DNA from: Clostridia bacterium | GTDB taxonomy: Bacteria > Bacillota > Clostridia > Christensenellales > Aristaeellaceae | Direction of reading: 5' to 3' | Length of the DNA: 57,298 bases | Assembly (NCBI GenBank): GCA_017484085.1 | Contig: JAFUTW010000023.1 | Location: 1-57,298, forward strand | In this document: piece by piece, positions 3,435 to 57,298 of the stretch | Layout: each line of letters starts with the position of its first letter | Numbering within the stretch: the stretch's first letter is position 1 | Program-made: the position numbers and the translations under genes | Notes under the pieces: model-generated | Seen by the model: the letters and a program-made list of their open reading frames with translations, nothing else | Databases searched by the model: none | What the model was told of the DNA's origin: nothing

Positions 3435-5063
3435 ATGAAGAAGGAATGGATTTCCATCGTGCTGGCTTTTGCGCTGCTGTGCACGCTGGTGTGGACGGGG
3501 AATGCCGTCCTGCCGGATGTTGCCGCTTCGGCGGATGCCGAAACGGTGTGGACGGCGGAGATCACGCTCGTGGGAGAAACGGCGGAGTGGACGGGCGACG
3601 GTGTGACGGCGGAAGACGGCGTGCTGACCATCGCGGGTACCGGGACCTACCGGCTGACGGGGGAGTGGCAGGAGGGCCGCATCGTCGTGGAGGCCGGCAA
3701 AAAGGGATACGTCACCCTCGTGCTGGACGGGCTTGAGGTCACGAGCAGCACGGGCAGTGCGCTGGAGATCGCCTCCTGCAGCCGCGTGACGCTTGTGACG
3801 GCCGAGGGGAGCGAAAACCGCCTCGAGTCCGCGGCGACGGGAGAGGAGGCCGCCTCCGCGCTGGTGAGCAAGGCGGACCTCTGGCTGGAAGGCGAAGGCA
3901 GCCTGACGCTGACGAGCGCCGGCAGGCACGGCGTACAGGCCGCGGACAGCCTCAGCATCAGCAGCGGGAACTATGTGATCGAGGCCGCCAAAGCCGGCCT
4001 GCGCGCCAATGACTTCATCCGCATTTCCGGCGGGGACATCCAGATCACCAGCGGTGCGGACGGCGTCCATGCCGACGGGGATGAGAGCAAGCCGGACACC
4101 GGTTGGATCGACATCTCGGGCGGCAGCCTCGTGATCGCCTCCGGGGACGACGGCGTGCACGCCGAGACGGTGCTGACGGTCTCAGGCGGCAGCATCACGG
4201 TGACGGAGAGCTGTGAAGGCCTGGAGGGCAATCAGGTCGAAATCCTGGGCGGGGACCTTGATATCACGGCCAGCGACGACGGCATCAACGCCGGCGGCGG
4301 GGATTCGGATTCAGGCGAATCCGGGTTTCGCGCGGGCGGCTTTGACAGGGCGTTCCCGCAGGACGGGGACATGCCGGAGCTGCCGGAAGGTTTCCCGGAA
4401 GACGGCGCCCTGCCGGAGATGCCGCAGCGGCCGGAGAAAGCTGAAGCAGACGGTGAACTCCCGGAGCGGCCGGAGACGATGGAGCCGCCGGAGGGATTTG
4501 AGCCGGGCGGGACGGACGGCGGTCCGGAGGCCCAAACGGAAAACAGCGACGCGCTGCTGCGCATCGCCGGCGGAAATATCCATGTAAAGGCGGACGGTGA
4601 CGGACTGGATTCCAACGGGGACCTCGTCATCGAAGGCGGGGAAATCGTGGTGGACGGCCCGAAAGACGGCATGAACGGCGCGCTGGACTGCGGCAGCGAA
4701 AGCGGAGGCACCCTGACTGTCTCAGGCGGGACCGTGCTGGCCATCGGTGCCTCCGGGATGGATGAGTGCTTTGACGAAAGTTCGGCGCAGGCTTCCTTCC
4801 GGTATGCGGGGCTCTCCTTTTCGGCGGGCGACGTGATCACCGTCGCGCTCGCGGATGGGACCGTGCTCCTTGAGCATACGGCAGAAACGGACGGCGATTC
4901 CATCGTCTTTTCCTCTCCGGCGCTTGCGGTGGGGGAGACGGTGCTCGTGAGCGCGGGAGAGGAGACGGCGGAGCTTCAGCTGACCGGGCAGACGACCGTC
5001 GCGGGAGAGAGCCGCGGATTTACGGGCGCGTCCCGCAGTCCGCGCTCACGCGGGAGAGGATGA
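3435..5063 (+). CDS. Secreted Cthe_2159-like (DUF4353) carbohydrate-binding beta-helix protein
   Basis: An exported protein with a signal peptide (MKKEWISIVLAFALLC) and many short parallel-beta turns rich in Gly and Asp (ISGGDIQITSGADGVHADG, ISGGSLVIASGDDGVHAE), the pattern of the Cthe_2159 family, whose founder binds acidic and cellulosic polysaccharides. A Pro/Glu-rich low-complexity segment (about residues 310-375, repeated PE-MP and ERPE units) interrupts the helix. I chose the ATG at 3435, with AAGAGGTG six bases upstream, rather than the in-frame GTG at 3426, which lies inside that site. The 3' end overlaps the convergent aroK by 44 bp. Ligand and location (wall or released) are not visible. 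Confidence 0.8.
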   Translation: MKKEWISIVLAFALLCTLVWTGNAVLPDVAASADAETVWTAEITLVGETAEWTGDGVTAEDGVLTIAGTGTYRLTGEWQEGRIVVEAGKKGYVTLVLDGLEVTSSTGSALEIASCSRVTLVTAEGSENRLESAATGEEAASALVSKADLWLEGEGSLTLTSAGRHGVQAADSLSISSGNYVIEAAKAGLRANDFIRISGGDIQITSGADGVHADGDESKPDTGWIDISGGSLVIASGDDGVHAETVLTVSGGSITVTESCEGLEGNQVEILGGDLDITASDDGINAGGGDSDSGESGFRAGGFDRAFPQDGDMPELPEGFPEDGALPEMPQRPEKAEADGELPERPETMEPPEGFEPGGTDGGPEAQTENSDALLRIAGGNIHVKADGDGLDSNGDLVIEGGEIVVDGPKDGMNGALDCGSESGGTLTVSGGTVLAIGASGMDECFDESSAQASFRYAGLSFSAGDVITVALADGTVLLEHTAETDGDSIVFSSPALAVGETVLVSAGEETAELQLTGQTTVAGESRGFTGASRSPRSRGRG

Positions 5064-5547
5064 GATCCACGGTATCCTCCACGCGGCTGCAGCTCTTGAT
5101 GATGTCATCCGCGCAGGAGCGGTAGAGGGGAAGGCGCGCCTCATAGAGGGCGCGCATTTCCTCTTTGGTGCGGTCCTTGGCCAGCGGGCGGCCGGTACGC
5201 CGGGAGAGGACGAGCCAGATGTCGTCAAAGTCGCGGTCCAGAAAGAGCACCAGGCCTGCGGCGCGCAGCGGAGCGGCGTTGCGCGCGAAGGTGGGCAGCC
5301 CGCCGCCGGTCGCGATCACCCGGGGCGAAAGAGAGGGGAGAGAGCAGAGCACCTCGTGCTCCAGATCGCGGAAGGAAGCCTCTCCCCGCGCTTCGAAGAT
5401 CTCCGGGATGGTCTGCCCGGTCTTCTCCTCGATCAGCATGTCGGTATCGGCAAAGGGGACGCCGAGCCTGCGCGCGGCCAGGCGGCCGACCGTGGTTTTG
5501 CCGCAGGCCATGAAGCCGCACAGAAGGACGTGGCGCCGGAGTTTCAT
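5020..5547 (-). CDS. aroK: Shikimate kinase
   Basis: ATP-dependent phosphorylation of shikimate in the chorismate pathway, cytoplasmic. At 175 residues it is the usual size. The P-loop is GFMACGKTT (residues 11-19), with Ala where GxxGxGK usually has Gly. DTD (about 34-36) binds Mg and shikimate, ATGGGLP is the shikimate-binding loop, and RTGRPL is the lid. The frame is open much further upstream, but the start at 5547 is set by GGGGAGGTG nine bases before the ATG and by a promoter at 5582-5610. It is a stand-alone gene with no other aro genes nearby. Its last 44 bp overlap the convergent beta-helix gene. Confidence 0.93.
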   Translation of the reverse strand: MKLRRHVLLCGFMACGKTTVGRLAARRLGVPFADTDMLIEEKTGQTIPEIFEARGEASFRDLEHEVLCSLPSLSPRVIATGGGLPTFARNAAPLRAAGLVLFLDRDFDDIWLVLSRRTGRPLAKDRTKEEMRALYEARLPLYRSCADDIIKSCSRVEDTVDLILSRVSADCGTRP

Positions 5548-5581
5548 ATCGAGCACCTCCCCGGATGAACTGTTTTTACTG

Positions 5582-5610
5582 ACTGTATCAAAGGGGGATG
5601 CCCTTGTCAA
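5582..5610 (-). promoter_or_regulatory. Sigma-A-type promoter of aroK
   Basis: Read on the minus strand: TTGACA, 17-bp spacer, TACAGT, about 35 bases upstream of the aroK start. Confidence 0.65.
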
Positions 5611-5681
5611 GAAGGACGGCGGATCAAATAATTTTGGTTCTGCGGGATAAAAGCGGAAGCCGCTGCGTCTTATGGTTGTAC

Positions 5682-5746
5682 TGTCCCGAAAGAGAGGCAC
5701 GGCAAAGGATACGGCCGGCCCAATAACAGCTTCGGGACAAAGGAGG
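5682..5746 (+). promoter_or_regulatory. 5' UTR hairpin abutting the SIMPL gene ribosome binding site
   Basis: TGTCCCGAA (5682-5690) is fully complementary to TTCGGGACA (5731-5739), whose last base starts the Shine-Dalgarno AAAGGAGG (5739-5746). A GC-rich inner part (GGCACGG, CGGCCGGCC) could extend the structure. The placement suggests translational control or mRNA protection; no known riboswitch is recognised. Confidence 0.45.
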
Positions 5747-5751
5747 ACAAG

Positions 5752-6447
5752 ATGAAAAAGTTTGCAGTTCTGCTGGCTTTGCTGGCACTGGCGTTTTCCT
5801 GCTGCGCCCTTGCGGATGCGGATATCGTCGCGCAGGGGACGGCGACCATCATGGCGGATCCGGATCTGGCGCGCGTAAACTGCGGCGCGAGCCTGCGCGC
5901 ATCCAGCATCGCCGAGGCACAGGAGAAGGTCGCCGCCGTCGTCGCTGCCGCGACGGAGAACCTGGAGGCCATGGGCATCGCGAAGGAAGACATCGTGACC
6001 GATTATTACAGCTGCTACCCGGCGTATGACTACAACGGCACGCAGGAGGAGCCGCAGATCATCGGCTATCAGGCGGGCCACTCGCTCGTCGTCACCTGCC
6101 GGGATCTCAGCCGGCTGGATGAAGTCCTCGGCATCATGACCGAGAGCGGCATGACGGAGTTCAACGGCATCACCTTTGACTGCACGAACAGACACGACCT
6201 GTATCTGGAGGCGCTGAAGAGCGCGGTGCGCACCGCAAGGGAAAAGGCGGAGGTGCTCTCTGCCGAATCCGGCCTGACCCTGGGCAGGGTGGACAAGGTG
6301 ACCGAGCAGGGCTATTCCGACATGGTCTACGCCGAAGCCGCATCCGGCGATGCGCAGATGCTGAGCAAGCGCGATGCGGGCGCAGGGATCCGGGGCGGCA
6401 CCGTGGGCGTGAGCGCGAGCGTCACGGTGGAATTCGAAGCCAGATGA
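5752..6447 (+). CDS. Exported SIMPL (DUF541) domain protein
   Basis: 231 residues with a signal peptide (MKKFAVLLALLALAFSCCALA), then the SIMPL/BP26 fold: an N-terminal strand with VAQGTATIMADPDLA, a helix rich in EAQEKVAAVVAA, a central segment IIGYQAGHSLVVTCRDL, and a C-terminal helix with ALKSAVRTAREKAEVLS. Family members occur in many bacterial envelopes and one forms channel-like rings; biochemical function is undefined. The ATG has AAAGGAGG six bases upstream. Monocistronic, closed by a strong terminator. Confidence 0.85.
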   Translation: MKKFAVLLALLALAFSCCALADADIVAQGTATIMADPDLARVNCGASLRASSIAEAQEKVAAVVAAATENLEAMGIAKEDIVTDYYSCYPAYDYNGTQEEPQIIGYQAGHSLVVTCRDLSRLDEVLGIMTESGMTEFNGITFDCTNRHDLYLEALKSAVRTAREKAEVLSAESGLTLGRVDKVTEQGYSDMVYAEAASGDAQMLSKRDAGAGIRGGTVGVSASVTVEFEAR

Positions 6448-6474
6448 CCCCGACGCCTGAGAAGGTGAAAACAC

Positions 6475-6520
6475 AGCCTGCCGTGCGCTGCAATTGCTGC
6501 AGCGCACGGCAGGCTTTTTT
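6475..6520 (+). terminator. Strong rho-independent terminator
   Basis: AGCCTGCCGTGCGCTGCA (6475-6492) pairs with its complement at 6498-6515, followed by six Ts. Confidence 0.9.
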
Positions 6521-6542
6521 ACAGAGTACCGGGCAGGCACAC

Positions 6543-6571
6543 TTGTCTCCATACGGATGAAATGTTATAAT
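6543..6571 (+). promoter_or_regulatory. Sigma-A-type promoter of glnN
   Basis: TTGTCT (6543-6548), 17-bp spacer, TATAAT (6566-6571), 37 bases before the start codon. The spacing leaves a leader of about 30 bases, too short for an elaborate riboswitch. Confidence 0.75.
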
Positions 6572-6608
6572 TTCCTTTAACTTGCCGGAGAAAACGGGAG
6601 GAAAAGCG

Positions 6609-8708
6609 ATGGAAAAGACAGAGATCCCCGCGCTGTTCGGTAGCGCGGTTTTCGGAGACAAGGAGATGCGCCGCAGGCTGCCCAAGGAGCTGTACCGCAG
6701 GCTGCACGGCTGCATCGAGGCCGGTGCGGAGCTGGATTCCGAGCTGGCCGGCGCCGTCGCCTGCGCCATGAAGGAATGGGCAGTTGAAAACGGCGCCACG
6801 CATTATACGCACTGGTTCCAGCCGCTTACGGGCACGACGGCGGAGAAGCACGACTCCTTCATCAGCCCGGACGGCGACGGCGGCGTCATCATGGAGCTGC
6901 GGGGCAAGGAGCTCATCCGCGGCGAGCCGGACGCCTCCTCTTTTCCTTCCGGCGGCATCCGTGCGACCTTTGAGGCCCGCGGCTATACGGTCTGGGATGT
7001 GACCAGCCCGGCTTTCCTCTACGACAACGGCGGGACGCGCACGCTGTGCATCCCAACGGCGTTCTGCGCCTACACGGGCGAGGCGCTGGATGAGAAGACG
7101 CCGCTGCTGCGGGCCATGGAGGCGGTCAGCCGCCAGGCTGTGCGCGTGCTGCGCCTCTTCGGGGACGAGAAGACGCAGCGGGTCTTCGCGTCTGTGGGCG
7201 CGGAGCAGGAGTACTTCATCGTGGATGAGGCGACGTACAAGCGCCGCAAGGACCTGATCTTCACGGGACGCACGCTCTTCGGGGCGATGCCGCCCAAGGG
7301 GCAGGAGATGGAGGACCACTACTTCGGCGCGATCAAGGAGCGTGTGGCGGCCTTCATGCGCGAGGTGGATCTGGAACTCTGGCGGCTGGGGATCCCCGCC
7401 AAGACGGAGCACAACGAGGCAGCCCCTGCCCAGCACGAGCTGGCCAGCGTGCACACGACGGCCAACGTGGCCTCCGACCAGAACATGCTGGTCATGAACG
7501 TGATGAAAAAGGTGGCCAGACGCCACGGCCTCGTCTGCCTGCTGCATGAAAAGCCCTTTGCCGGCGTCAACGGCAGCGGCAAGCACAACAACTTTTCCCT
7601 GCAGACGGAAGGCGGGCGCAATCTGCTGGATCCGGGGCGCCAGCCGCAGACGAACACGGAATTCCTGCTGTTCATGACGGCGGTGCTGAAGGCTGTGGAT
7701 GAATACGCGCCCCTTCTCCGTCTCTCCGCGGCGACCCCGGGGAACGATCACCGGCTGGGCGGCGACGAGGCGCCGCCGGCCATCCTCTCCGTCTTCCTGG
7801 GCGACCAGCTGACGGCCGTCGTGGAGCACATCATCCGCGGCAGCGACGAGCAGGTGCCCTGCACCTCGGAGATGAGCGTGGGCGTCTCCACCCTGCCGCA
7901 CATCCGCAGGGACGCGACGGACCGCAACAGGACTTCCCCCTTCGCCTTCACGGGCAACAAGTTCGAATTCCGCATGGTGCCTTCGACCGCCTGCGTGGCG
8001 GACGCGAACACCGTGCTCTGCACCATCGTGGCGGATGCGCTCGGCGACTTTGCCGATCAGCTGGAGAAGGAAGCGGATCCGCTTTCAGCCGTGCCGGCGC
8101 TGCTGCAGCGCGAGCTGACGGCGCACCAGCGCATCATCTTCAACGGCAACGGCTATACGGAGGACTGGGTTGCGGAGGCGGAGCGCCGCGGCCTGCCCAA
8201 CATCCGCACGATGGTGGACGCCATCCCCGCCTATCTCGCCCAGGATACCGCTGCGCTGTTTGCGCGGCACGGCGTGTACACCTCCAAAGAGCTGGCGGCG
8301 CGCGCGGACGTGGCCTGGGAGCAGTACGCCAAGGTGATCAACATCGAGGCGCTGACCATGATCGATATGGCGGGCAAGGACATCCTGCCGGCCGTCGTGC
8401 GCTGGACGGGCAAGCTGGCCCGGGCGGCAAACGAGGTGGCCGAGGCAGGGGTGGACGCCTCCGTGCACCGGGAGATGCTGGAGCGCGCGTGCATCCTGCT
8501 GCGGCAGGCCACAAGGGCGCTATCCGACCTGGAGGAGAAGCAGGCGCGCACTGCCAAGCTCTCCGGCGCCGCGCGCGCTGCCGCCTGCCGGGATGAGCTG
8601 CTGCCCGCGATGACGGTGCTGCGCGCGCCCGTGGATCTGCTGGAAGGCATCTGCGATTCCGCCCTCTGGCCGATCCCCGGCTATGACGAGCTGCTGTTTA
8701 ACGTCTGA
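6609..8708 (+). CDS. glnN: Glutamine synthetase, type III
   Basis: ATP-dependent condensation of glutamate and ammonia to glutamine. At 699 residues it matches the long type III (GlnN) family rather than type I (about 450). Visible signatures: KTEHNEAAPAQHE near residue 265, NVASDQNMLVMNVM near 287, KPFAGVNGSGKHNNFSL near 314 (substrate loop), RLGGDEAPPA near 381 and FTGNKFEFRMVPS near 446 (nucleotide and metal region). I chose ATG 6609, with GGGAGG seven bases upstream; the in-frame upstream start lies too close to the -10 box. Its own promoter precedes it; no glnR or glnB neighbour is present. Confidence 0.95.
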   Translation: MEKTEIPALFGSAVFGDKEMRRRLPKELYRRLHGCIEAGAELDSELAGAVACAMKEWAVENGATHYTHWFQPLTGTTAEKHDSFISPDGDGGVIMELRGKELIRGEPDASSFPSGGIRATFEARGYTVWDVTSPAFLYDNGGTRTLCIPTAFCAYTGEALDEKTPLLRAMEAVSRQAVRVLRLFGDEKTQRVFASVGAEQEYFIVDEATYKRRKDLIFTGRTLFGAMPPKGQEMEDHYFGAIKERVAAFMREVDLELWRLGIPAKTEHNEAAPAQHELASVHTTANVASDQNMLVMNVMKKVARRHGLVCLLHEKPFAGVNGSGKHNNFSLQTEGGRNLLDPGRQPQTNTEFLLFMTAVLKAVDEYAPLLRLSAATPGNDHRLGGDEAPPAILSVFLGDQLTAVVEHIIRGSDEQVPCTSEMSVGVSTLPHIRRDATDRNRTSPFAFTGNKFEFRMVPSTACVADANTVLCTIVADALGDFADQLEKEADPLSAVPALLQRELTAHQRIIFNGNGYTEDWVAEAERRGLPNIRTMVDAIPAYLAQDTAALFARHGVYTSKELAARADVAWEQYAKVINIEALTMIDMAGKDILPAVVRWTGKLARAANEVAEAGVDASVHREMLERACILLRQATRALSDLEEKQARTAKLSGAARAAACRDELLPAMTVLRAPVDLLEGICDSALWPIPGYDELLFNV

Positions 8709-8761: not shown

Positions 8762-10345
8762 ATGATGAAACACAACGAGGCAGGGCCGGGGCTTTCGCGT
8801 GTGCCCGCGGCGCTGCTGCTGGTGCTGGCCTTCCTCTTCAGCGTGGGCGCATATGCCCGGCTGGGCAGCCACTATCCGGATGCCGACCTGGCCAGCGAGA
8901 TGGTGCTCGCCGATCTGCTGAACCGCGAAGGGCGGCTCATGACGGACAGCTGGTACTATTCCAGCGAGCTGCGGATCGTGAGCCCCGTGCCGCTGTATCA
9001 GCTGGGCCTCACCCTCTTTCATTCATGGCACGCGGCAAGGGTTTTTGCCGTGGCCGTCATGCTTGCGGTGACGATCGCGTGCTTCCTCTACGCCGCAAAG
9101 CCGTGCGGCCTTTGCGCGGGGGGCCTGTACACCGCCGCGGTGCTGGCGCTGCCCTTTACCCGCGTCTACGCCGAGTTTTCGGTGTTCGGCTGCTACTACT
9201 CGGTCTTTCTTGGCATCATCTTTCTGCTGCTGGGCATGCTGATGCGCATGGGAAAGGAGAAGGGCCGCATCCGGCGCTTTCTCCTTATGGCGCTCCTCTC
9301 CCTGTGGGGCGGTCTGGCCGGCGTGCGCCTGCTGATGACCTTTGTGCTGCCGCTGGGACTGGCGCTCGTGTGGGAGACGCTGAGCGCGCTGCGCGGACAC
9401 AGGACCCTGCGGGAGGGCTGCAGTACCCTGCCGATACCGATGCTTGCCGCCGCGGCGCTTTCGTTTGCGCTGCTGCTGGCGGGCTGGATGATCAACACGC
9501 GCGTGCTTTCGCAGCTTTACACCTTTGACAGCTACGGCACTACGCACGTGGCGGAGCCGGATGCCGAGATCCTCACCTACCAGTTTACGGAAGCCATCGA
9601 ATTTTTCGGCTTCAGGGAGGCATCCAGCCTCATCTCGCTGCGCGGGCTGCTCGCCCTGTTTTCCATCGCCCTTGCGGGGTTTGCATTCGTCTCCCCCGCG
9701 CGCGCCCTGCGCGAAGAGAAGGGCTTCTTTACCGCGCCCCGCGTGCTTGAACTCTACGCGCTCTTTGCCGCGCTCTGCGGCATCGCCGTCAACCTGTCCA
9801 CGCAGAACTTCGGCTGCCAGTACTACCTGCCGGGGCTGCTTGCGATGATCGCCGTGCTGGACCGGCGCATCGCCCGCTCCCGTCTGCCGAAGGCGGCGAT
9901 GCAGCTGCTGTGCCTGGCCTTTGCCGGTGTCTTTGCGCTGAATGCGGCGGTCTATGTGCGCGAGGATCTGCCGCACGGGGCGACAAACCAGGAGCAGGCG
10001 GCTGCCTGGCTGAAGGATGCAGGCCTTGAAAGGGGATATGCGACCTTCTGGAACGGCGCGAACCTCTCGCAGGCGACGGACGGCGCGCTGGAGGTCTGGG
10101 TGCTGGAGGAGCCGACCTACTCCGAGGAATGGAAGCGTCTGAAACTCAATGAATACCTGCAGGAAAAACGGCATCTCGCGGAGGCGCCCGAAGGAGAGGT
10201 CTTCGTCTACCTGTCGCCGGAGGAGGCTTTGGAGGCGCCCGGCTGGGCGGATGCGGGCCACCTTGCCTGCGCGGCGGACTGGGGAAGCGTTTACCGCTAT
10301 GAAAGCGCTATAGAATTGAAAGAATTGGTTGACACGGCCCCGTAA
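8762..10345 (+). CDS. Polytopic membrane protein, possible GT-C glycosyltransferase
   Basis: 527 residues. About nine or ten hydrophobic segments run from residue 14 to 400, with a soluble C-terminal region. The first outside loop contains PDADLASEM soon after the first membrane helix, the place where GT-C (PMT/ArnT-type) lipid-sugar transferases keep an acidic pair; a hydrophilic C-terminal domain is also common there. I cannot recognise a specific family, so transferase activity is inference. It begins 53 bases after glnN without an obvious terminator and may be cotranscribed. Its last codons contain the -35 box of the rplJ promoter. Confidence 0.55.
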   Translation: MMKHNEAGPGLSRVPAALLLVLAFLFSVGAYARLGSHYPDADLASEMVLADLLNREGRLMTDSWYYSSELRIVSPVPLYQLGLTLFHSWHAARVFAVAVMLAVTIACFLYAAKPCGLCAGGLYTAAVLALPFTRVYAEFSVFGCYYSVFLGIIFLLLGMLMRMGKEKGRIRRFLLMALLSLWGGLAGVRLLMTFVLPLGLALVWETLSALRGHRTLREGCSTLPIPMLAAAALSFALLLAGWMINTRVLSQLYTFDSYGTTHVAEPDAEILTYQFTEAIEFFGFREASSLISLRGLLALFSIALAGFAFVSPARALREEKGFFTAPRVLELYALFAALCGIAVNLSTQNFGCQYYLPGLLAMIAVLDRRIARSRLPKAAMQLLCLAFAGVFALNAAVYVREDLPHGATNQEQAAAWLKDAGLERGYATFWNGANLSQATDGALEVWVLEEPTYSEEWKRLKLNEYLQEKRHLAEAPEGEVFVYLSPEEALEAPGWADAGHLACAADWGSVYRYESAIELKELVDTAP

Positions 10346-10357
10346 AGCGGTTATAAT
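10329..10357 (+). promoter_or_regulatory. Consensus sigma-A promoter of rplJ-rplL
   Basis: TTGACA (10329-10334), exactly 17 bp, TATAAT (10352-10357): a perfect consensus promoter. The -35 box lies inside the last codons of the upstream membrane-protein gene. Confidence 0.9.
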
Positions 10358-10364
10358 ACCCGTC

Positions 10365-10485
10365 GTGAATTGAAAAGATCTGTGCCAAAGACAGCCGGTC
10401 GCCCAGTGCGATAAGTTTAACGCCGGCCGAGGCGCGAGACTCAATGTGATTTGTGTCCCTGCGCCCAGCGCAGGGATTTTCTTTT
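10365..10485 (+). promoter_or_regulatory. Ribosomal protein L10 leader with terminal hairpin
   Basis: The stretch between promoter and rplJ has the position, length and GCCAAAGACAGCCGG-type core of the L10 leader, an mRNA mimic of the 23S rRNA site bound by L10-(L12)4, through which the complex represses its own synthesis. It ends in TCCCTGCGC-cca-GCGCAGGGA (10456-10476) followed by TTTTCTTTT, a terminator-like hairpin that fits attenuation. The leader call rests on context and partial motif match; a covariance-model search would settle it. Confidence 0.75.
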
Positions 10486-10517
10486 CCGGATCCGTACGGA
10501 AAGGAGGAACCTTACCA

Positions 10518-11039
10518 ATGTCTGCGAATTTGGAAGCCAAAAAGGCAGTCGTCGCCGAGATCGAGGAGAAAATCGAGAAGGCGCAGTCCATCACCATCGT
10601 GGAGTACAAGGCACTCACCGTCGAGGCCATCACGGCCCTGCGCGCAAAGTGCCGCGCCGCGGGTGTGGACTACTGCGTGCTGAAGAACACCATGGCCCGC
10701 CGCGCGATGCAGAACAAGGGCATCGAGCTGGATCAGAAGGTGCTGGAAGGCCCCAACGCCTACATCTTCAGCAACAACGACCCGATCTCCGGCCCGAAGC
10801 TCGTTAAGGAGTTCATCGCCGCCGCAGAGAAGGACAAGAAGGTGCCCGCTCTCACCATCAAGGGCGGCTACATGGACGGCGCAGCGCAGAGCGTGGAGGA
10901 CATCAAGGCCCTGGCCGACATCCTGCCCCGCGAGCAGCTCATCGCCAAGATCATGGGCGCACTCAATTCCCAGGCGACCGCTCTGGCCTATGTCATCAAG
11001 GCGATTGCCGACAAGAAGGCCGAAGCCGGCGAACAGTAA
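10518..11039 (+). CDS. rplJ: Ribosomal protein L10 (uL10)
   Basis: 173 residues, normal for L10. The N-terminal RNA-binding domain includes SITIVEYKALTVE and VLKNTMARRAM; the C-terminal helix that carries L7/L12 dimers ends in Ala-rich sequence. I chose ATG 10518, with AAGGAGG ten bases upstream; the frame is open further back only through the leader hairpin. Forms the ribosomal stalk base. rplK and rplA, usually upstream, are absent here. Confidence 0.97.
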   Translation: MSANLEAKKAVVAEIEEKIEKAQSITIVEYKALTVEAITALRAKCRAAGVDYCVLKNTMARRAMQNKGIELDQKVLEGPNAYIFSNNDPISGPKLVKEFIAAAEKDKKVPALTIKGGYMDGAAQSVEDIKALADILPREQLIAKIMGALNSQATALAYVIKAIADKKAEAGEQ

Positions 11040-11076
11040 TCAGAAATCATCCTAAAAATTACAGGAGGAAAGCATC

Positions 11077-11451
11077 ATGGAAATCAATGAGATCGTATCC
11101 GCGATTGAGAATCTTACCCTGCTTCAGGCGAGCGAGCTCGTCAAGGCTCTCGAAGAGAAGTTCGGCGTTACCGCCGCTGCCCCCGTTGCCGCCGCTGCCG
11201 GCGGAGCTGCCCCGGCCGCTGCTGCCGAGGAGAAGACCGAGTTCGACGTCGTGCTCACCGGCTTCGACGCTGCGAAGAAGGTCGCCGTCATCAAGGCCGT
11301 CCGCGAGGTCGTTTCCGGCCTGGGCCTGAAGGAAGCCAAGGACATGGTCGAGGGCGCGCCCAAGACCCTGAAGGAAGGCGCCTCCAAGGACGAAGCCGAG
11401 GAGATCAAGAAGAAGCTGGAAGCCGCCGGCGCTACCGTCGAGGTCAAGTAA
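11077..11451 (+). CDS. rplL: Ribosomal protein L7/L12 (bL12)
   Basis: 124 residues: an N-terminal dimerisation helix ([19 protein letters not shown]), an Ala-rich hinge (about 33-55) and the C-terminal factor-binding domain ([20 protein letters not shown], then [18 protein letters not shown]). Binds L10 and recruits translational GTPases. It follows rplJ by 37 bases with AGGAGG. A terminator follows at once, so rpoB is not in this transcript, unlike the usual rplJL-rpoBC arrangement. Confidence 0.98.
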
Positions 11452-11468
11452 TCCCGCTGATTCAAGCA

Positions 11469-11501
11469 AAGCACTTTCGCATCCTGCGGAGGTGCTTTTT
11501 T
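11469..11501 (+). terminator. Rho-independent terminator after rplL
   Basis: AAGCAC...CGCA pairs with TGCG...GTGCTT, followed by a T run. Confidence 0.85.
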
Positions 11502-11565
11502 CATATCCCCGCCCCAATTGGCTGAAAAGTCGGCAACCTTGTGTCACACCTTTGCCACAATGTGC

Positions 11566-11574
11566 TGGTAGAAT
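11566..11574 (+). promoter_or_regulatory. Possible extended -10 promoter
   Basis: TG-G-TAGAAT about 30 bases before the ATG of the beta-helix gene, without a good -35 box; the extended TG could compensate. Confidence 0.4.
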
Positions 11575-11604
11575 ACGGCCATTCAAACAAAGGAGGACAT
11601 CCTG

Positions 11605-13119
11605 ATGAGAGCCAAGAAGATTTTTGCGCTGCTGACAGCGCTTGCCGTACTGATGATGAGCTTTGCCGCACTGGCGGAAGGACAGACACCCCCGGCTATG
11701 CCGCCCGAAATGGGACAAGGCGGCCCCGGTGGAAATCCGCCTGACGGAATGCCGGGAAATCCGCCTGACGGAATGCCCGGCGGCCAGGGCGGCCCCGGCG
11801 GGATGCCGGGCGGCGGCAGCAGCCAGCCGGAGAGCTATGACGCGGTGAACACCTTCGCGGAAGATACCGATATCGCGGATGAAACCATCGAATCGACGGG
11901 GACGGACGAGAACGCGGTGCTGGTAACGGACGGTTCCGTCACGCTGGAGAACGTCACCGTAAAGCGCATCTCCGATGACAGCACGGGCGGCGACAGCGCG
12001 AGCTTCTACGGCGTGGGCGCGGCACTTCTTGCGACGGGCGGCACCCTGTCGGTATCGGATTCCGTGATCGAGACGGACGCAAAGGGTGGCGCGGGCGTCT
12101 TTGCCTACGGCAGCGGCACGGCCGTGGTGACCGACACGACGATCGCGACGACGCAGGATACCTCCGGCGGTATCCACGTGGCGGGCGGCGGTACGCTGTA
12201 CGCCAGGAACCTCACGGTGACGACCGAGGGCGGGAGCTCCGCTGCGATCCGCTCCGACCGCGGCAGCGGCACCATGGTCGTGGACGGCGGCAGCTACACC
12301 TCAAACGGTTCCGGCAGCCCGGCGGTCTACGTAACGGCGGACATCACGATCCACGGCGCCGATCTCACGGCGACCGGCTCCGAGGCGCTGTGCCTGGAGG
12401 GGCTCAACGCTGTGCGCCTCTACGACTGCAATCTGACCGGCGATATGCCCGACCAGGAGCAGAATGACAACACGTGGACGGTCATCCTCTACCAGAGCAT
12501 GTCCGGCGACGCCGAAGTGGGCAAGGGCAGCTTTGAGATGGTCGGCGGCAGCCTGACCTCCGCAAACGGCGGCCTGTTGTACACCACCAACACACAGAGC
12601 GAGTTCATCCTATCCGGCGTCCGCATCGAAGCGGCGGAGGACAGCGAGTACTTCCTGCGCTGCACGGGCAACAGCAACAAGCGCGGCTGGGGACAGACGG
12701 GCGCAAACGGCGCGGACTGCACCTTCACGGCGATCACCCAGGAGATGGCGGGCGACGTGATCTGGGACAGCATTTCGACGCTGCGGCTGTATGTGACCGA
12801 GGGGAGCGTGCTGAAGGGCGCGGTCATCGACGATGAGAGCTGCGCCGGCACCGGCGGGGACGGCAGCTGCACGCTTGTGATCGACGCGGACTCCACCTGG
12901 GTCGTGACCGGCGACAGCACGGTGACGAACCTTGCCTGCGAGGGCACGATCGCGGATGCGGCCGGCAATGCCGTCACCATCGTGAAGGCTGACGGCATGG
13001 TGCTTTCGGAAGGCAGCAGCGAGTACACCGTAACGGTGACGGACTACTCCACCTCCTGCGATCTCTCCGGCGCGGGCAGCGCGGCGGAATGGAACGCCGA
13101 CCTCTTTGCGGCGGACTGA
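11605..13119 (+). CDS. Secreted parallel beta-helix protein with Gly/Pro-rich N-terminal region
   Basis: 504 residues. A signal peptide (MRAKKIFALLTALAVLMMS...ALA) is followed by a Met/Gly/Pro-rich linker (about residues 26-75) with two copies of GNPPDGMP encoded by a 24-bp tandem duplication (11731-11778). The rest is short Val/Thr/Gly/Asp strands of a right-handed beta-helix (GSVTLENVTV, GGTLSVSDSVIETD, GSGTMVVDGGSYTSN). No catalytic motif is recognised; polysaccharide binding is possible by analogy with similar folds. The ATG has AAAGGAGG. Monocistronic. Confidence 0.75.
   Translation: MRAKKIFALLTALAVLMMSFAALAEGQTPPAMPPEMGQGGPGGNPPDGMPGNPPDGMPGGQGGPGGMPGGGSSQPESYDAVNTFAEDTDIADETIESTGTDENAVLVTDGSVTLENVTVKRISDDSTGGDSASFYGVGAALLATGGTLSVSDSVIETDAKGGAGVFAYGSGTAVVTDTTIATTQDTSGGIHVAGGGTLYARNLTVTTEGGSSAAIRSDRGSGTMVVDGGSYTSNGSGSPAVYVTADITIHGADLTATGSEALCLEGLNAVRLYDCNLTGDMPDQEQNDNTWTVILYQSMSGDAEVGKGSFEMVGGSLTSANGGLLYTTNTQSEFILSGVRIEAAEDSEYFLRCTGNSNKRGWGQTGANGADCTFTAITQEMAGDVIWDSISTLRLYVTEGSVLKGAVIDDESCAGTGGDGSCTLVIDADSTWVVTGDSTVTNLACEGTIADAAGNAVTIVKADGMVLSEGSSEYTVTVTDYSTSCDLSGAGSAAEWNADLFAAD
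11731..11778 (+). repeat. 24-bp tandem duplication in the beta-helix gene
   Basis: Two adjacent 24-bp units differing at one base, encoding GNPPDGMP twice. This is a likely slippage site for in-frame length change of the linker. Confidence 0.85.
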
Positions 13120-13180: not shown

Positions 13181-15361
13181 CTATGCAAACTCCGGAAACT
13201 CCTCTTCAAACCGCAGCTGCGCGCTGCGCAGGGCCTGCTCCGGCGTCATGGCGCCGCTGAGGGCGTTTTTGACGGCGATGCCCAGCAGGCTGATGAAAAG
13301 CCGCTCGTTAAAGGGCCTGGGATCCTCCGGATGCTGACGGAACCCCTTGGCTGTGTGGTAACGGTCGCGCACCAGGCGGAGCCAGGGATAGCTGCCGAGG
13401 ATCTCGTAGTTTTCGTAAGCGGCTGCGCTGGGCGCGACGCCGCACAGCAGACCGACAGCGGAAGCGACCGGCTCGCCGATCAGCCATCGGAGAAAGGCCA
13501 GGCTTTCCTTTTTGTTGCGCGAATGGCGGGAGATGCCCAGCGCACCGCCGCCCAGCTGGGGGTTGCCGCCCGGAACCATGGCGTAGCCCAGGTTGTCCTG
13601 TACGCGGGAGTGGTGACCGACCAGCGGCGCTGCGAAGTTGTTGTAAAGGATCGCCATTGCCGTATCGCCCCGGGCGAAGGAGCGGGCAGTGTCCGTCCAC
13701 CAGGGGCACCCGCCGGGCTGTACGCTGCCCTTCAGCCGGATCATCTGGCGCAGGGCGAGGATGCCCGCCTCGCTGTCCAGACGGATGCGGCCTTCACCGT
13801 CGTACAGGTTCTCCTGCAGCGCAAAGAGGCGGCAGAGGTATTCCGAGCCGGTGACGCCGGTGGAGCCGAGCGTCAGCGTCGCGCCGTAGGGGACAGGCGA
13901 TTCCGGGTTGCTCTGTCTGGAGAAGAACGCGGCGATCCGGTTGAATTCCGTGAAGGTGCGGGGCACGCGCAGCTCCTCGTGGCAGCGCTCCTGATAGAGG
14001 CGGCGGAGGATGGCGCTCTCGAAGAGGTCCGTACGGTAGAAGAGCATCTGCATGCTGGGAGAAGCCGGCAGGGTGTAGAGCGTGCGGCCGACGCGGCAGC
14101 ACCGCTCCGGGACCCCGCGCAGGAAGCTGCCGAGGGACTCCGGGATGTCCGGATCGATGTCGGTGAGGGGCACGAGGATCTTCTCCGCGAGCCAGGAAAG
14201 CCAGGTGATGTCCAGGCGGATGATGTCGAAGACGGATTCCCGCTGCAGGCCGGCATAGACCTCGCTGGTCGCATCATAGGAATACACGGTGATGTTGACG
14301 GGGACACCGGTCTGCTGCGTGTACAGCGTGGCCATGCTGCGCAGGGTCGCGGCGGCGGGGCTGTCCAGGGTGACGATATTGAGCGCTTCGTTTTTCTCCG
14401 GGCGGACAGACGGGGCCGCGAAGGAGCGGAACCCGGCGGCGGGCAGGACGCAGGAAGCCTCTGCCGGCTCGCCGGAGAGGATGCGCAGAAGTCTGCCGGC
14501 AGCTCGGCTGCCCAGCTGACGGTAGTCAAATTCATATTTGTAGAAGTCCGGCTCCGGCAGTGTGAACAGAGGGGAGAGGCAGTAGATGGCAGGCCGGGGC
14601 TCGGGCAGGAAGACCTGTGTGGTGCTGCGCACGGTGCGGGCGAGTTCCAGCCGGCTGCAGACGACAGCGCTATCCGCGTACTGTTCGGAAGCCTGCAGAA
14701 GGGCCAGCCGGACGCGGCGCAGGTCGGTCGCGATGGGATGGACGATGCAGCCGCCGGCCTCTGCCGCTTCCGTAAAGCCGCGGACGAACGCGGCCTCATC
14801 CGGAAAGCGGAGGCTGCCGGAGATGAGCGTGGCGGAAGGTACGCCGCGGGAAAGGAGCCGCCCGGCGAGCGCGCGGCCTGCGGCTTCCGTATCAAAACCG
14901 ATGAAGTGCCGGCATCCTTCCGCAGCGTGCTCGATGTGCAGCACGGCGGGCGCGCCTTCCCCGGAGGGCAGACGGGCGCCGCGGCAGCGGGAGAAGAGGG
15001 CAATGCCGCTGACCATGTCGCTCTGGGCATCGCGCAGGGCAGCCTCTTCCGCTTCGCGGTCGTCGCTGCGCAGGATGTAAAGCCGCGCTTCATAGCCGTG
15101 GCTCTCCGCGTGCGCGCGGAACCCGGAAAAGAAATCCGTATGGCGCTTCTCTTCCAGGGCGGGGACGATGACGCCCAGAACGCGGTTGCTGCCGCGGCGC
15201 AGGACTTTTGCGCGCTCATTGGGCACATATCCGAGACGGCGGCAGGCTTCCTGCACGAGGCGGATCTTCTCGCTGGAGACGTTGCCCCGCCCGTTGAGCA
15301 CATTGGAGACCGTACCCTGTGAGACGCCGGCTTCCCTTGCGATGTCTTTGATGGTGACCAT
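13181..15361 (-). CDS. Three-domain regulator: LacI HTH + PBP1-like domain + ABC solute-binding-protein domain
   Basis: 726 residues in one frame. Residues 1-58 are a LacI helix-turn-helix and hinge (IKDIAREAGVSQGTVSNVLN, then YVPNERAKVLRR). About 60-320 resemble the periplasmic-binding-protein type I effector domain of LacI regulators (RVLGVIVPALEEKR, GFDTEAAGRALAGRLLSRG). From about 327 to the end is a second sensor-like part resembling family 1 ABC solute-binding proteins (VTLDSPAAATLRSM, FDIIRLDITWLSWLAEK, FARGDTAMAILYNN, FLRWLIGEPVAS). There is no signal peptide, so it acts in the cytoplasm. AAAGGAAG precedes the ATG. It diverges from a Ugp-like importer that it probably controls (inference). 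Confidence 0.88.
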   Translation of the reverse strand: MVTIKDIAREAGVSQGTVSNVLNGRGNVSSEKIRLVQEACRRLGYVPNERAKVLRRGSNRVLGVIVPALEEKRHTDFFSGFRAHAESHGYEARLYILRSDDREAEEAALRDAQSDMVSGIALFSRCRGARLPSGEGAPAVLHIEHAAEGCRHFIGFDTEAAGRALAGRLLSRGVPSATLISGSLRFPDEAAFVRGFTEAAEAGGCIVHPIATDLRRVRLALLQASEQYADSAVVCSRLELARTVRSTTQVFLPEPRPAIYCLSPLFTLPEPDFYKYEFDYRQLGSRAAGRLLRILSGEPAEASCVLPAAGFRSFAAPSVRPEKNEALNIVTLDSPAAATLRSMATLYTQQTGVPVNITVYSYDATSEVYAGLQRESVFDIIRLDITWLSWLAEKILVPLTDIDPDIPESLGSFLRGVPERCCRVGRTLYTLPASPSMQMLFYRTDLFESAILRRLYQERCHEELRVPRTFTEFNRIAAFFSRQSNPESPVPYGATLTLGSTGVTGSEYLCRLFALQENLYDGEGRIRLDSEAGILALRQMIRLKGSVQPGGCPWWTDTARSFARGDTAMAILYNNFAAPLVGHHSRVQDNLGYAMVPGGNPQLGGGALGISRHSRNKKESLAFLRWLIGEPVASAVGLLCGVAPSAAAYENYEILGSYPWLRLVRDRYHTAKGFRQHPEDPRPFNERLFISLLGIAVKNALSGAMTPEQALRSAQLRFEEEFPEFA

Positions 15362-53648: not shown

Positions 53649-53690
53649 AAACCGATATGAGCAACTCTGATGTCGGCAGGAGGCTTTGCC

Positions 53691-56057
53691 ATGTACGATA
53701 AAAAGAAGATGAGCGAGGAAGATATCAAGCTGAAGTTCATTACGCCTGCTGTCACCGCAAAGTGGAGCCTTGACCGGATCACGATGGAAACGAAGATCAC
53801 GGACGGACGGATCAACCTCAGGGGAAATCTGGTCGTGCGTGAGCACCCCAAGAAGGCGGATTATGTCCTTTACAGCAGCGCCAACAACCCGATCGCCATT
53901 ATTGAGGCGAAGGACAACAATCACACCGTGTCTTTCGGGCTGATGCAGGCGATGACCTATGCCCAGATGCTCGATGTCCCTTTTGCGTACAGTTCGAACG
54001 GCGACGCCTTTTACGAGCATGATTTTCTGACCGGACTGGAACGGCAGATTCCGCTTCAGGATTTTCCCTCTCCCGACGAATTGATGGAAAGATACCGGAC
54101 CGGGGCGAACGACGGCCTGGGATTGAACGAAGCGGAAATGCGGATCCGGCTTCAGCCCTATTACAGCAGCCAGAAGACCCATGCGCCGCGCTATTATCAG
54201 CGCAACGCGGTCAACAGGACCGTGGATGCCATTGCGCGCGGACAGAACCGGCTGCTTCTTGTGATGGCCACGGGGACGGGCAAAACCTATACGGCGTTCC
54301 AGATCGTTTACCGCCTGCTGAAGAGCGGCATGAAAAGAAAGGTGCTCTATCTCGCGGACCGGAACATCCTCGTGGACCAGTCCATTCAGCAGGATTTCTC
54401 ACCGCTGGAGAAGACCATACACAAGATCAATTTCGCCAAAGACGATCCGACGACGATCACTTCCCATGAGGTGTATTTCTCGCTGTATCAGCAGCTTACA
54501 GACCGCGAAGAGGACGCGGCTGACGCGGATGAGGATGAAACACTCAGCCGCCTTGCCCGCCTGTTCAAGCCGGACTTCTTCGACCTCATCATCGTGGACG
54601 AGTGTCACAGGGGCTCTGCAAAGAAGGACAGCAGCTGGCGCAGGATCCTGGAATACTTTGCCTCGGCCACGCAGATCGGCATGACGGCCACGCCGAAGGA
54701 GACGAAGTACGTCTCCAATATCGATTACTTCGGAAAGCCGGTTTACACCTACAGCCTGAGGGAGGGCATAGAGGACGGTTTCCTCGCCCCGTTCAGGGTC
54801 ATCAACATCACCACGGACATCGGAGACGGGTGGCGGCCGAGAAAGGGGCAGCTGGACAAGTTCGGCAACCCGATCGAGGACCGCGTCTACACCAACAGCG
54901 ATTACGACTACAGCATCGTGATCGAGGACCGTGTGCAACAGGTGGCCTCGGAGATCACCCGCTACCTGAAGTCGACCGACCGCATGGCCAAGACCATCGT
55001 GTTCTGCGCCACGGAGGAAGCTGCCGAGCGCATGCGCGTAGCGCTTTCCAACCTGAACGCGGACAAGGTGAAAGAAAACCCGGATTACGTGGTCAGGATC
55101 ACAGGCAGCGACGTCTACGGCAAGAGCAAGCTGGATTACTTTATCTCCGTCTCCGCGCCGTACCCGGTCATCGCGACGACCTCCAAGCTCCTCTCCACCG
55201 GCGCGGACTGCAAGATGACCAAGCTGATCGTGCTGGACGAGATGATCGGCTCCATGACGGAATTCAAGCAGATCATCGGGCGCGGCACCCGCCTGCGCGA
55301 AAAGGAAGGGAAGACCCACTTCGTCGTGATGGACTTCCGCAACGTCACGCGCCTGTTCGCTGACCCGGAATGGGACGGCCCCATCCAAATGGATCCCGGG
55401 TTCGACCCGAACGGACCGGGCAACGGAGGCAGTGACGATCCGCCCGGCCCCGGCCCCGTGGATCCCGTCCCCCCGAAGGTCAAGCCCATTGTGGACAGGA
55501 ACGGCTGCCGGGTCGAGATCATCTACAAAACGGTTTCTGTTTACGACGCGAACGGAAAGCTGCTCCGCCAGGAGAGCATTACGGATTACACCAAGGAGAA
55601 TGTCCGCGGCGAATACGCCACGCTGGATGCGTTCATCCGGGAATGGCGCAGGGATCCCCAAAAGGAAAAGATCCGGGATATGCTGCTGGAGCGCGGCATC
55701 GATCTTGAAAGGATGAAAGCGGATCAGGGCATGAGCGACGTGGATGACTTTGATTTCATCTGCCACGTGGCCTACGACAAAAAGCCGCTCACCCGGAAAG
55801 AACGGGCAAACAATGTGAAAAAGCGCGACTTCCTCAGCCGCTACAGCGGCGTCGCCCGCGAGATCCTGGAAGCGCTGCTGGACAAGTACATGAACGCCGG
55901 CATCTATGAGATCGGCAAAGCGGAGATCCTGAAGCTCGATCCCTTCCTGAAATACGGAAAGCCGGCAAAGATTTCTTCCTTCTTCGGCGGTAAAACCGGG
56001 TACCTGAAAGCCGTGCAGGAGCTGGAAGACGCAATTTATACAGATGAGGCAGGTTAA
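53691..56057 (+). CDS. hsdR: Type I restriction enzyme R subunit (EcoEI-like)
   Basis: 788 residues. The N-terminal nuclease is of PD-(D/E)xK type (ADYVLYSSANNPIAIIEAKD, about 58-77). SF2 motor: MATGTGKTYTA (192 on), VDECHRG (about 302), GMTATP (about 330), QIIGRGTRLRE (about 528). A Pro/Gly-rich linker (about 575-600) precedes the C-terminal HsdM-contact region. It translocates and cuts DNA lacking host methylation. The ATG at 53691 is seven bases after AGGAGG; the ATG at 53670 lies upstream of that site. The stop overlaps the next start by one base. Confidence 0.93.
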   Translation: MYDKKKMSEEDIKLKFITPAVTAKWSLDRITMETKITDGRINLRGNLVVREHPKKADYVLYSSANNPIAIIEAKDNNHTVSFGLMQAMTYAQMLDVPFAYSSNGDAFYEHDFLTGLERQIPLQDFPSPDELMERYRTGANDGLGLNEAEMRIRLQPYYSSQKTHAPRYYQRNAVNRTVDAIARGQNRLLLVMATGTGKTYTAFQIVYRLLKSGMKRKVLYLADRNILVDQSIQQDFSPLEKTIHKINFAKDDPTTITSHEVYFSLYQQLTDREEDAADADEDETLSRLARLFKPDFFDLIIVDECHRGSAKKDSSWRRILEYFASATQIGMTATPKETKYVSNIDYFGKPVYTYSLREGIEDGFLAPFRVINITTDIGDGWRPRKGQLDKFGNPIEDRVYTNSDYDYSIVIEDRVQQVASEITRYLKSTDRMAKTIVFCATEEAAERMRVALSNLNADKVKENPDYVVRITGSDVYGKSKLDYFISVSAPYPVIATTSKLLSTGADCKMTKLIVLDEMIGSMTEFKQIIGRGTRLREKEGKTHFVVMDFRNVTRLFADPEWDGPIQMDPGFDPNGPGNGGSDDPPGPGPVDPVPPKVKPIVDRNGCRVEIIYKTVSVYDANGKLLRQESITDYTKENVRGEYATLDAFIREWRRDPQKEKIRDMLLERGIDLERMKADQGMSDVDDFDFICHVAYDKKPLTRKERANNVKKRDFLSRYSGVAREILEALLDKYMNAGIYEIGKAEILKLDPFLKYGKPAKISSFFGGKTGYLKAVQELEDAIYTDEAG

Positions 56058-56569
56058 TGAAAACCATCAGTTCCTGGCATGTCGGGGTGGCTGCAGAAGC
56101 CTATGCCGCTGCCGTTTTCGCCCGTTATGGGTATGATGTTTCCGTACAATACGGAGCCAACCAACCGGAATACGATTTAATTGCTGTATCCGGAGACCGT
56201 ATGCTCAAAATCTCCGTAAAAGGCAGTCAGGACGGAAGCTGGGGCCTTACACAGGGCTATAAAAAAGGGTGTGACTACCACGAAGCCACGGCGAAATGGC
56301 TTACGGCACACCACAGGAAAACCATATTTTGTCTTGTTCAGTTCCAAGGCACAGCACCGGATGAAATGCCGAGGATCTATCTGGCCACGCCGCAGGAGAT
56401 AGCCGATCGTCTGAATGCATCCGCCGGCGGCAGGGGCGAAACCATACTGTATGAAAACCATACCTGGGGACCTCGTGCAGTTGGGAGCGGCACAACGGAT
56501 CAGGTTCCGGCAGATTGGAGGATTTCCGCCGGAAGGCTGGAATACCTGTTTGATCGTTTCGGTCAGTAA
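56057..56569 (+). CDS. Small PD-(D/E)xK-like protein inside the hsd operon
   Basis: 170 residues. WHVGVAAEAYAAAVFARYGY with Glu14, EYDLIAVSGD with Asp40, and KISVKGSQDG with Lys55 follow the E...D...(x)xK plan of resolvase/restriction-like nucleases, with Ser53 where Glu or Gln is usual. The family is not certain. Codon use looks AT-richer than hsdR. It overlaps the hsdR stop (TAATG) and precedes hsdM by 15 bases, so it is cotranscribed. Could be an accessory nuclease or regulator of the restriction system. Confidence 0.55.
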   Translation: MKTISSWHVGVAAEAYAAAVFARYGYDVSVQYGANQPEYDLIAVSGDRMLKISVKGSQDGSWGLTQGYKKGCDYHEATAKWLTAHHRKTIFCLVQFQGTAPDEMPRIYLATPQEIADRLNASAGGRGETILYENHTWGPRAVGSGTTDQVPADWRISAGRLEYLFDRFGQ

Positions 56570-56584: not shown

Positions 56585-57298
56585 ATGGCAAATCTCACGG
56601 GTTTTGTAAAGCGGCTGCGCGACATCATGCGAAACGACGCAGGCATCAACGGCGACGCTCAGCGCATCGAGCAGATCGCCTGGATGCTCTTTCTCAAGGT
56701 TTACGACGCCAAGGAGCAGGACTGGGAGTGGGATGACGACGCCTACGTCTCCATCATCCCGGAAGAATGCCGCTGGGCCGCCTGGGCGCACGACGACAAA
56801 TCCGGCACGGCGCTGACCGGAGAGAAACTGCTGGACTTCGTCAACAACACCCTATTCCCGACGCTGAAAAAGCTGCCGGTGGACGCTTCCACCCCCATCA
56901 AAAAAGCCATCGTGCAGACGACGTTTACCGACGCCAACAACTACATGAAGGACGGCGTGCTGCTGCGGCAGGTGCTGAACGTGATCGACGAGCTGGACCT
57001 TTCCGACTACACGGAGAGCCACGCCTTCGGCGAAATCTACGAGAGCATCCTGAAGGAGCTGCAGAGCGCCGGCAGCGCCGGCGAGTTTTACACGCCCCGC
57101 GCCGTCACCGAATTCATGGCGAAGATGATCCGCCCGAAGATCGGCGAGACGATGGCGGAAAAAACCCTGCCAACTTTGATACAAACCAACGAAACTTATG
57201 AATCGACGCAAATCGACGCATTTTTTGAGTCGAAACCAAAAATCGACGCATTTTTGAAAATCGACGCAAATGCCCAAAGGCAGGAATACAAAATGGCA
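56585..57298 (+). CDS. hsdM: Type I methyltransferase HsdM, N-terminal part, frame diverges before motif I
   Basis: ATG 56585, GGAAGG upstream, open to the window end. Residues 1-190 are standard HsdM: FVKRLRDIMRNDAGINGDAQ, IEQIAWMLFLKVYDAKEQDW, FGEIYESILKELQSAGSAGE, FYTPRAVTEFMAKMIRPKIG. The next residues should form the SAM-binding motif (ADPACGTGGF), but after ETMAE the sequence becomes KTLPTLIQTNETYESTQIDA and then repeated IDAF units. The switch, near 57160, coincides with a drop in GC content. Insertion, rearrangement or assembly junction; the catalytic domain is not in this window. Confidence 0.8.
   Translation, partial: MANLTGFVKRLRDIMRNDAGINGDAQRIEQIAWMLFLKVYDAKEQDWEWDDDAYVSIIPEECRWAAWAHDDKSGTALTGEKLLDFVNNTLFPTLKKLPVDASTPIKKAIVQTTFTDANNYMKDGVLLRQVLNVIDELDLSDYTESHAFGEIYESILKELQSAGSAGEFYTPRAVTEFMAKMIRPKIGETMAEKTLPTLIQTNETYESTQIDAFFESKPKIDAFLKIDANAQRQEYKMA
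57201..57268. repeat. Four copies of a 10-mer in AT-rich DNA
   Basis: AATCGACGCA occurs at 57201, 57211, 57241 and 57259, the first two in direct tandem; the second and third are followed by a T run and GA. It lies just inside the foreign-looking sequence that interrupts hsdM. Iteron-like or element-end repeats. Confidence 0.75.

Follow-up and report, generated by a model that had tools for sequence, protein, structure and literature searches.

A probable integrative element at motif I of hsdM in a Clostridia bacterium genome, and related ends at other methyltransferase genes

ICEs that carry a triplet of serine integrases and are inserted in hsdM, traG or mutT have been described for streptococci. 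Their direct repeats measure 2-8 bp and some secondary sites are in use (PMC4701971, PMC7563491, in the accessible parts of both texts). For Tn4451, the accessible parts of two further papers describe a large serine recombinase, TnpX, a 2-bp crossover and low target specificity (PMC3158075, PMC5704250). We report here on a locus of a Clostridia bacterium in which the DNA from position 57158 onwards is, judged from the sequence, very probably the left end of an integrative element that was inserted site-specifically into hsdM at a GA dinucleotide.

The window, i.e. the whole stretch of 57,298 nucleotides that was analysed, is the entire contig C21 of a metagenome-assembled genome (G000; 2.43 Mb, 49 contigs, 80.75% complete). 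All features of the window described below lie on the forward (+) strand. The type I restriction subunit gene hsdR occupies 53670..56057 as an intact frame with Pfam matches to ResIII, EcoEI_R_C and HSDR_N_2. Between hsdR and hsdM there is a small PD-(D/E)XK-like gene (56057..56569), the start of which overlaps the hsdR stop; its match to PF11645 is weak, as its 20.9 bits fall short of the cut-off of 26.1 bits. The hsdM frame starts at 56585 and is open up to the end of the contig. According to the reading frame, Pfam and homologs, its 5' part (56585..57159) corresponds to homolog residues 1-192 and is broken at the Asp codon of the SAM-binding motif I. The Pfam matches of the window HsdM are HsdM_N and positions 3-56 of the 311 positions of N6_Mtase.

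A first-pass annotation of this DNA, made without database searches, had noted that hsdM is interrupted just before its motif I, and the comparison with relatives bears this out. The window HsdM is like its relatives through residue 191 and departs from them at the Asp codon of motif I. Among the best 80 hsdM loci of 458 relatives, which served as the comparison set, 77 possess an intact ADFACGTGGF, and two (L008 and L009) are interrupted at the same codon. The native motif of these relatives is DFACGTGGF and not DPACGTGGF, as had been written. In L065 the hsdM contig stops at 3889, shortly ahead of motif I, which looks like a break by a similar insertion.

The insert begins with the GA at 57158, and 141 bases of it are present on the contig. 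The inserted DNA has a GC content of 39.7% compared to 60.0% in the hsdM part, and it contains four exact copies of the 10-mer AATCGACGCA (57201..57268, starting at 57201, 57211, 57241 and 57259), with no others in the window; both properties had been recognized correctly in the first-pass annotation. The order of elements on the window side is the GA (57158..57159), a spacer of 11 bases (57160..57170), the left inverted repeat CAACTTTGATACAAA (57171..57185), the segment CCAACGAAAC (57186..57195) and then the subterminal 10-mer copies. All of these belong to the presumed left end of the integrated element, which extends from 57158 to the contig limit at 57298 and is covered to 100% by L008. 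The sequence AAATCGACGCA occurs three times in the whole genome, each time at the insert, and its reversed control does not occur.

The locus L008 stems from roe deer abomasum and its record is labelled Oscillospiraceae. It agrees with the end of the window over 6714 of 6714 bases, and offers 4 kb more of the element. In this additional DNA a hairpin followed by a T-run resembles an intrinsic terminator, and the genes after the hairpin encode TfoX_N, DUF2268, MerR/TipAS and TetR proteins; no recombinase was found in the 4.2 kb of element in L008. It had been remarked earlier that the frame stays open through the insert, and the hsdM frame does run to the end of the contig. A function of the encoded IDAF repeats at the protein level was dropped as a candidate, because the frame stops soon afterwards in L008 and the same DNA follows other genes. 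The small new frame that had been taken for the possible start of an element gene is probably none, as it leads into the terminator-like hairpin in the identical DNA of L008. In L009, from sheep duodenum, hsdM is cut at the same codon by a different element; its spacer and inner sequence differ from those of the window, and CCAACTTTGATACAA is common to both. A second type of left end, GATATAAAAAC[GT]CCAACTTTGATACAAT followed by the common TTCGACGGCGGCTTACCTCCAAGCAGGGTAAG, is observed in L009 (from 6574 on) and in L254 (197-224), likewise in methyltransferase genes.

The remaining part of hsdM is found on another contig of the same genome, C26. There are only two matches to the N6_Mtase profile in the genome, namely the window stub and a piece on C26 that starts at profile position 49. 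On C26 the order is TTTGTATCAAAGTTG, 11 bases and GA, and hsdM resumes with GATTTTGCCTGCGGC directly behind the 11 bases. Three HsdM relatives align with residues 1-192 to the window and with residues 190-492 to C26, so hsdM appears to have lost nothing except its continuity. The two halves fit, and the GA comprises the sole bases common to both junctions. TTTGTATCAAAGTTG matches CAACTTTGATACAAA, and the two ends form perfect 15-bp inverted repeats at equal distance from the GA. CCAACGAA is found again in three copies close to the right end on C26, and a PLD-like protein adjoins this end. Each element end occurs once in the genome, and we infer that one element is flanked by both contigs in the arrangement C21-element-C26. 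The presence of a right end, of the missing part of hsdM and, as described below, of sister copies speaks for the mobile element that had been one of three readings in the first-pass annotation; the proposed search for the remaining hsdM, a target-site duplication and inverted ends yielded the half on C26, the GA alone and the 15-bp repeats.

One of the two other readings was a contig chimera, in which the assembler joined hsdM to unrelated AT-rich repeat DNA. The contig indeed ends 141 bases past the junction start, in sequence repeated among related elements, and 141 is a usual largest word length of one assembler. The identical junction in the 6714 bases of L008, which perhaps comes from the same sampling project, and the occurrence of this end at different host sites in further genomes make such a chimera highly improbable; a matching right end with a fitting rest of hsdM on C26 further argues against it. 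The other reading was a phase-variable switch; the insert would then form part of a system that switches methylation on and off by programmed inversion or excision. In its favor, the ends are inverted and excision would restore the frame. No second hsdM copy or silent cassette was detected in the 80.75% complete genome, in which the N6_Mtase matches are the two halves only. Since other genomes have these ends at unrelated genes, a wandering element is favored, and we give a dedicated switch hardly any probability.

To survey these ends we searched 308 genomes of the family, the own genome included. The left-end pattern was found at 11 sites in 10 of the genomes. The right-end search, which tolerated 3 mismatches at most, gave 22 sites in 17 of them, 18 of these sites being exact matches; the reversed controls gave no match in either case. 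Over the first 190 bases, L007, L232, L233, L234, L239, L240 and L242 are identical to L008 at 178-187 of 189-190 positions, and these seven, like L008 itself, also possess four copies of AATCGACGCA. L238 is identical at 160 of 168 positions and has two 10-mers, L236 at 122 of 175 positions with one 10-mer, and L237 at 95 of 98 positions up to its contig end. The variant ends L009 and L235 are left out of this comparison. Across the order, the left-end spacing pattern occurred in 5 of 396 genomes, a set that partly overlaps the 308 family genomes; two of these were already known and three have unrelated spacers (L243-L245). Outside the family, these 396 genomes yielded nothing above chance for the left-end spacing, the reversed control matching in 2. 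Several candidates were rejected. A 15-mer scan of viral contigs matched at least 120 stretches, and of the loci from it that were checked for the spacing pattern, only L007 had the left-end spacer; seven others show a correctly spaced GA and unrelated spacers and are regarded as chance matches, as is a seeming right end in G001:C89 (the genome of L008), which lies inside an unrelated reading frame.

A complete element on a single contig is available in L313 (G300:C29). It measures 5,076 bp from GA to GA, with the left end from 5994 and the right end at 11044-11071, and a single GA leaves a continuous host frame. GA is seen at both junctions of this element and in G000, and also in G025, where both halves are UPF0020, and in G152 and G162, where the halves were paired by eye. 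L313 contains five reading frames of at least 110 amino acids; the three that were scanned are ArsP_1 and SBF transporters and one without family, with no transposase among these three, and the complete element has no match to recombinases A, B and C (A and B are described below). L315 is made up of stacked units: its two right ends lie 4.1 kb from each other, and the first is immediately followed by a damaged left end. Joints between a right end and a left end are also present in L230, L246, L247 and L248, and could represent circular forms instead of tandem copies. In L248 (7695-8971) a right-left joint is followed by an IS630-like transposase frame and then, judged by eye, by chromosome-like genes; this joint is perhaps a decayed remnant.

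Recombinases are encoded near the left end of related copies. In L230, two overlapping genes encode A (526 aa) and B (597 aa), both with Resolvase and Recombinase domains in Pfam; this adjoining pair lies at 3784-5364 and 5340-7133 on the minus strand. A third serine recombinase of 750 aa is encoded in opposite orientation (10283-12535, plus strand), and the stretch 13436-13957 resembles part of its C-terminal region (29%). By similarity, L250 possesses A and B, with B cut by the contig end, and L246 possesses A. The distance between the left end and the start of A is 1.6 to 4.1 kb in these three loci, and A is oriented toward that end. The A proteins of the three elements are 97% alike, and B is 96% alike over 372 aa in two. 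The A gene of L250 carries a stop, its frame ending at 2310 while the similarity extends to 2769. A protein of 132-133 aa (phrog_2308) is encoded just upstream of the recombinase pair in L230 (7357-7755) and in the more distant L308 (4976-5377); in L230 it is sigma-70 region 4-like and could be a helper. The four serine recombinases of the own genome were rejected as a partner, as the similarity to A or B is 24-27% for three of them and the fourth gave no match.

On account of the large serine recombinase pair near the left end of related copies, we regard integration at GA by serine recombinases as the most likely route. A tyrosine recombinase or a DDE transposase as the mover, in place of A and B, is unlikely in our judgement. 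In its favor, two frames were recognized by eye in L248, one tyrosine integrase-like, on the element side of one right end, the other IS630-like, beside a left end; and the enzyme of the own element is not seen in the parts of it that the two contigs cover. Moreover, 11 right-end or joint stretches, including L309 with 19.7 kb and L311 with 19.9 kb, had no match to A, B or C. Against it stands the position of A near the left end in L230, L250 and L246 and of B in L230 and L250, as well as distant relatives of both near the L308 junction. The junctions share GA alone, as described for serine recombinases with a 2-bp crossover such as TnpX in the accessible parts of PMC3158075 and PMC5704250.

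The cargo of the window-type elements comprises transporters (L313, L315), acetyltransferases (L230, L250) and regulators (L008, L315). Ten large proteins of L309, L311 and L312 gave PADLOC matches at 1e-25 for two, both in L311. In L311 (2915-8582) a type III-like methylase and a GajB/UvrD-like helicase form one gene run beside a diverged right end.

The survey allows the host sites to be compared. Three of the 11 left junctions adjoin the right end of another element and eight adjoin host genes, six of which are methyltransferase genes. From the 22 right junctions, five tandem or decayed joints (L276, L282, L290, L293, L294) were excluded; seven of the remaining 17 continue in frame as motif I of a methyltransferase. 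Four insertions were taken as two-sided (G000, G025 and the pairs in G152 and G162), so that 8 left and 17 right junctions amount to 21 host sites, own genome included and L009 excluded, which was found via hsdM itself. Methyltransferase genes account for 11 of the 21 sites and other locations for 10. Motif I is read directly, from the right side, at seven of the 11; the other four (L234, L235, L238, L239) are seen from the left only, and break where motif I is expected. By Pfam, the methyltransferase targets belong to N6_Mtase, MmeI_Mtase, MmeI_N with MmeI_hel, and the RNA-methylase type UPF0020. For L234, a 103-aa piece alone had no Pfam match and a longer piece did match; the L235 piece resembles proteins annotated as N-6 DNA methylase.

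The resemblance among target sites extends beyond the methyltransferase genes. The 17 right flanks contain 13.4 bits over positions 3-45, a figure inflated by the motif common to the seven methyltransferase genes; in 2000 samples of GA-anchored sequence the average was 5.1 and the highest value 8.6. We also built an empty-site matrix from the 77 uninterrupted hsdM sites. The mean score of the ten non-methyltransferase right flanks under this matrix was reached by none of 20,000 random groups. Ranked against every GA in their own 1.5-kb flanks, seven of the ten fall in the top 2% (combined p 3e-8). L285 (7.5%), L280 (31%) and L287 (91%, beside a diverged right end) are not clearly motif-I-like. 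In L296 and L286 the resemblance to motif I is out of the apparently coding frame. The target thus seems to be recognized as DNA and not as protein, and we infer that the serine recombinases see DNA encoding motif I as attB.

From these observations a mechanism can be proposed for the element in hsdM. A circular form with the order right end-GA-left end would meet motif I DNA, where the GA at the crossover corresponds to the first two bases of the motif I Asp codon. Serine recombinase subunits could then bring the two GAs together and exchange the strands, so that each junction retains a GA. The catalyst would be the adjoining large serine recombinase pair (A/B) known from sister copies; the 10-mers and the CCAACGAA repeats are probable binding sites for the recombinase or a helper. 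Elements without a recombinase may be mobilized in trans. In type I restriction HsdR requires HsdM and HsdS, and the type I system should therefore be silent while the element is inserted, the insertion presumably silencing the methyltransferase and with it the system. As for the earlier suggestion that HsdR may be present without a working methyltransferase, the methyltransferase function is probably lost while the element is in place, but HsdR alone is not expected to cut. Precise excision would restore hsdM exactly.

Relatives of recombinase A are found at some distance: in gut phages (up to 69.5%), in Streptococcus phage Javan255 (53%) and on an Enterococcus lactis plasmid (54%). On this plasmid TGTATCAAAG-N14-GA directly precedes motif I of an hsdM 3' half, which begins at GATCCTGCAGCGGG behind the N14; the spacing is that of the window family. 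The Enterococcus element was searched for its second end without success. When viral contigs were scanned for TGTATCAAAG-N14-motif I, eight loci emerged, compared to none with the reversed core and none with a spacing of 11 bases. These loci were selected for motif I by the scan pattern itself; by eye, in all eight the downstream part reads as methyltransferase and the upstream part does not. In L308, relatives of A and B (57% and 50%) are near the junction, whereas A, B and C are absent from the other seven of the eight stretches. The end core was not found in the examined stretches of L274, L275 and L299.

Proteins on the element side of distant junctions were chosen for scanning, L303, L305 and L307 being left out. 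In L302 they comprise the S and R subunits of a type I system, GmrSD, Hachiman A and, in two frames, Hachiman B; in L304, McrBC and a type I set of M, S and R; in L301, a type II methylase, Hachiman B and a nuclease similar to Mrr; and in L306, DpnII with a methylase. On the Enterococcus plasmid, McrC adjoins a DUF3578 protein. Of the three proteins scanned in L308, two belong to DNA polymerase A and MerR and the third to a phage family without known function. At five distant junctions the element-side proteins thus look like defence proteins by family assignment; some of these genes could lie outside the elements. L301, L302, L304, L306 and L298 have in common the right-end spacing, a cut host methyltransferase and restriction or defence genes on the element side.

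As a broader and tentative proposal, to which we assign somewhat less than an even chance, DNA encoding motif I may be where serine-recombinase elements of a broad class generally dock, in Bacillota of the gut and others. Arriving elements would silence the resident system and some would bring restriction or defence genes, amounting to a swap of immunity, while recombinase-less cassettes would ride along and stack in tandem. Such elements should readily find a site, because selection keeps the motif I target in nearly every restriction-modification system. Restriction-modification is a main barrier to incoming DNA. If the proposal is true, integration at motif I would disable this barrier and excision could give it back, and a family of serine recombinases would gain an attB of wide occurrence, specified by a protein motif. 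An hsdM that appears broken at the contig end of a metagenome bin may then represent a reversible insertion and not decay. In a limited literature search, with few subscription papers, we found no report of a motif I target rule across methyltransferase families, of recombinase-less units with these ends or of restriction-gene cargo in the distant relatives.

The crossover dinucleotide of TnpX is GA. The window family shares with Tn4451/TnpX, as far as the parts available of PMC3158075 and PMC5704250 describe it, a large serine recombinase, encoded here near the left end of sister copies, and a 2-bp crossover, presumably the GA in this family. It differs in favoring motif I DNA, with 11 of 21 sites in methyltransferases, and in possessing a recombinase pair (L230, L250) in place of a single TnpX as well as subterminal repeat arrays. 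The gut phages (one of them PV036426, 64%, filed under Ca. Heliusvirales) and Javan255, in which the relative of A adjoins a second recombinase, encode relatives of A but are phage genomes, and the core of the window-type ends was not found in the examined stretches of PV036426 and Javan255. Integron gene cassettes are small cargo units that have no recombinase of their own and are able to line up. The recombinase-less units described here are similar in being small cargo units that can line up; the window family is different in probably using a serine and not a tyrosine recombinase, and in having inverted ends on both sides. Since serine-integrase elements inside hsdM have been published for streptococci, the window element is of a known kind, as judged from the accessible parts of PMC4701971 and PMC7563491. 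In common with those triplet ICEs, it has serine recombinases in its family, insertion inside hsdM, very short repeats (2 bp here) and some secondary sites. In contrast to them, as far as these parts describe them, the window family has two adjoining recombinases near one end, with a third in opposite orientation in L230; three serine integrases of the same orientation at one end are not present in L230, the only copy with enough sequence. The window family further differs from the streptococcal ICEs in that it is placed at motif I of several methyltransferase families, forms joints of two elements and includes a 5-kb element without such a recombinase.
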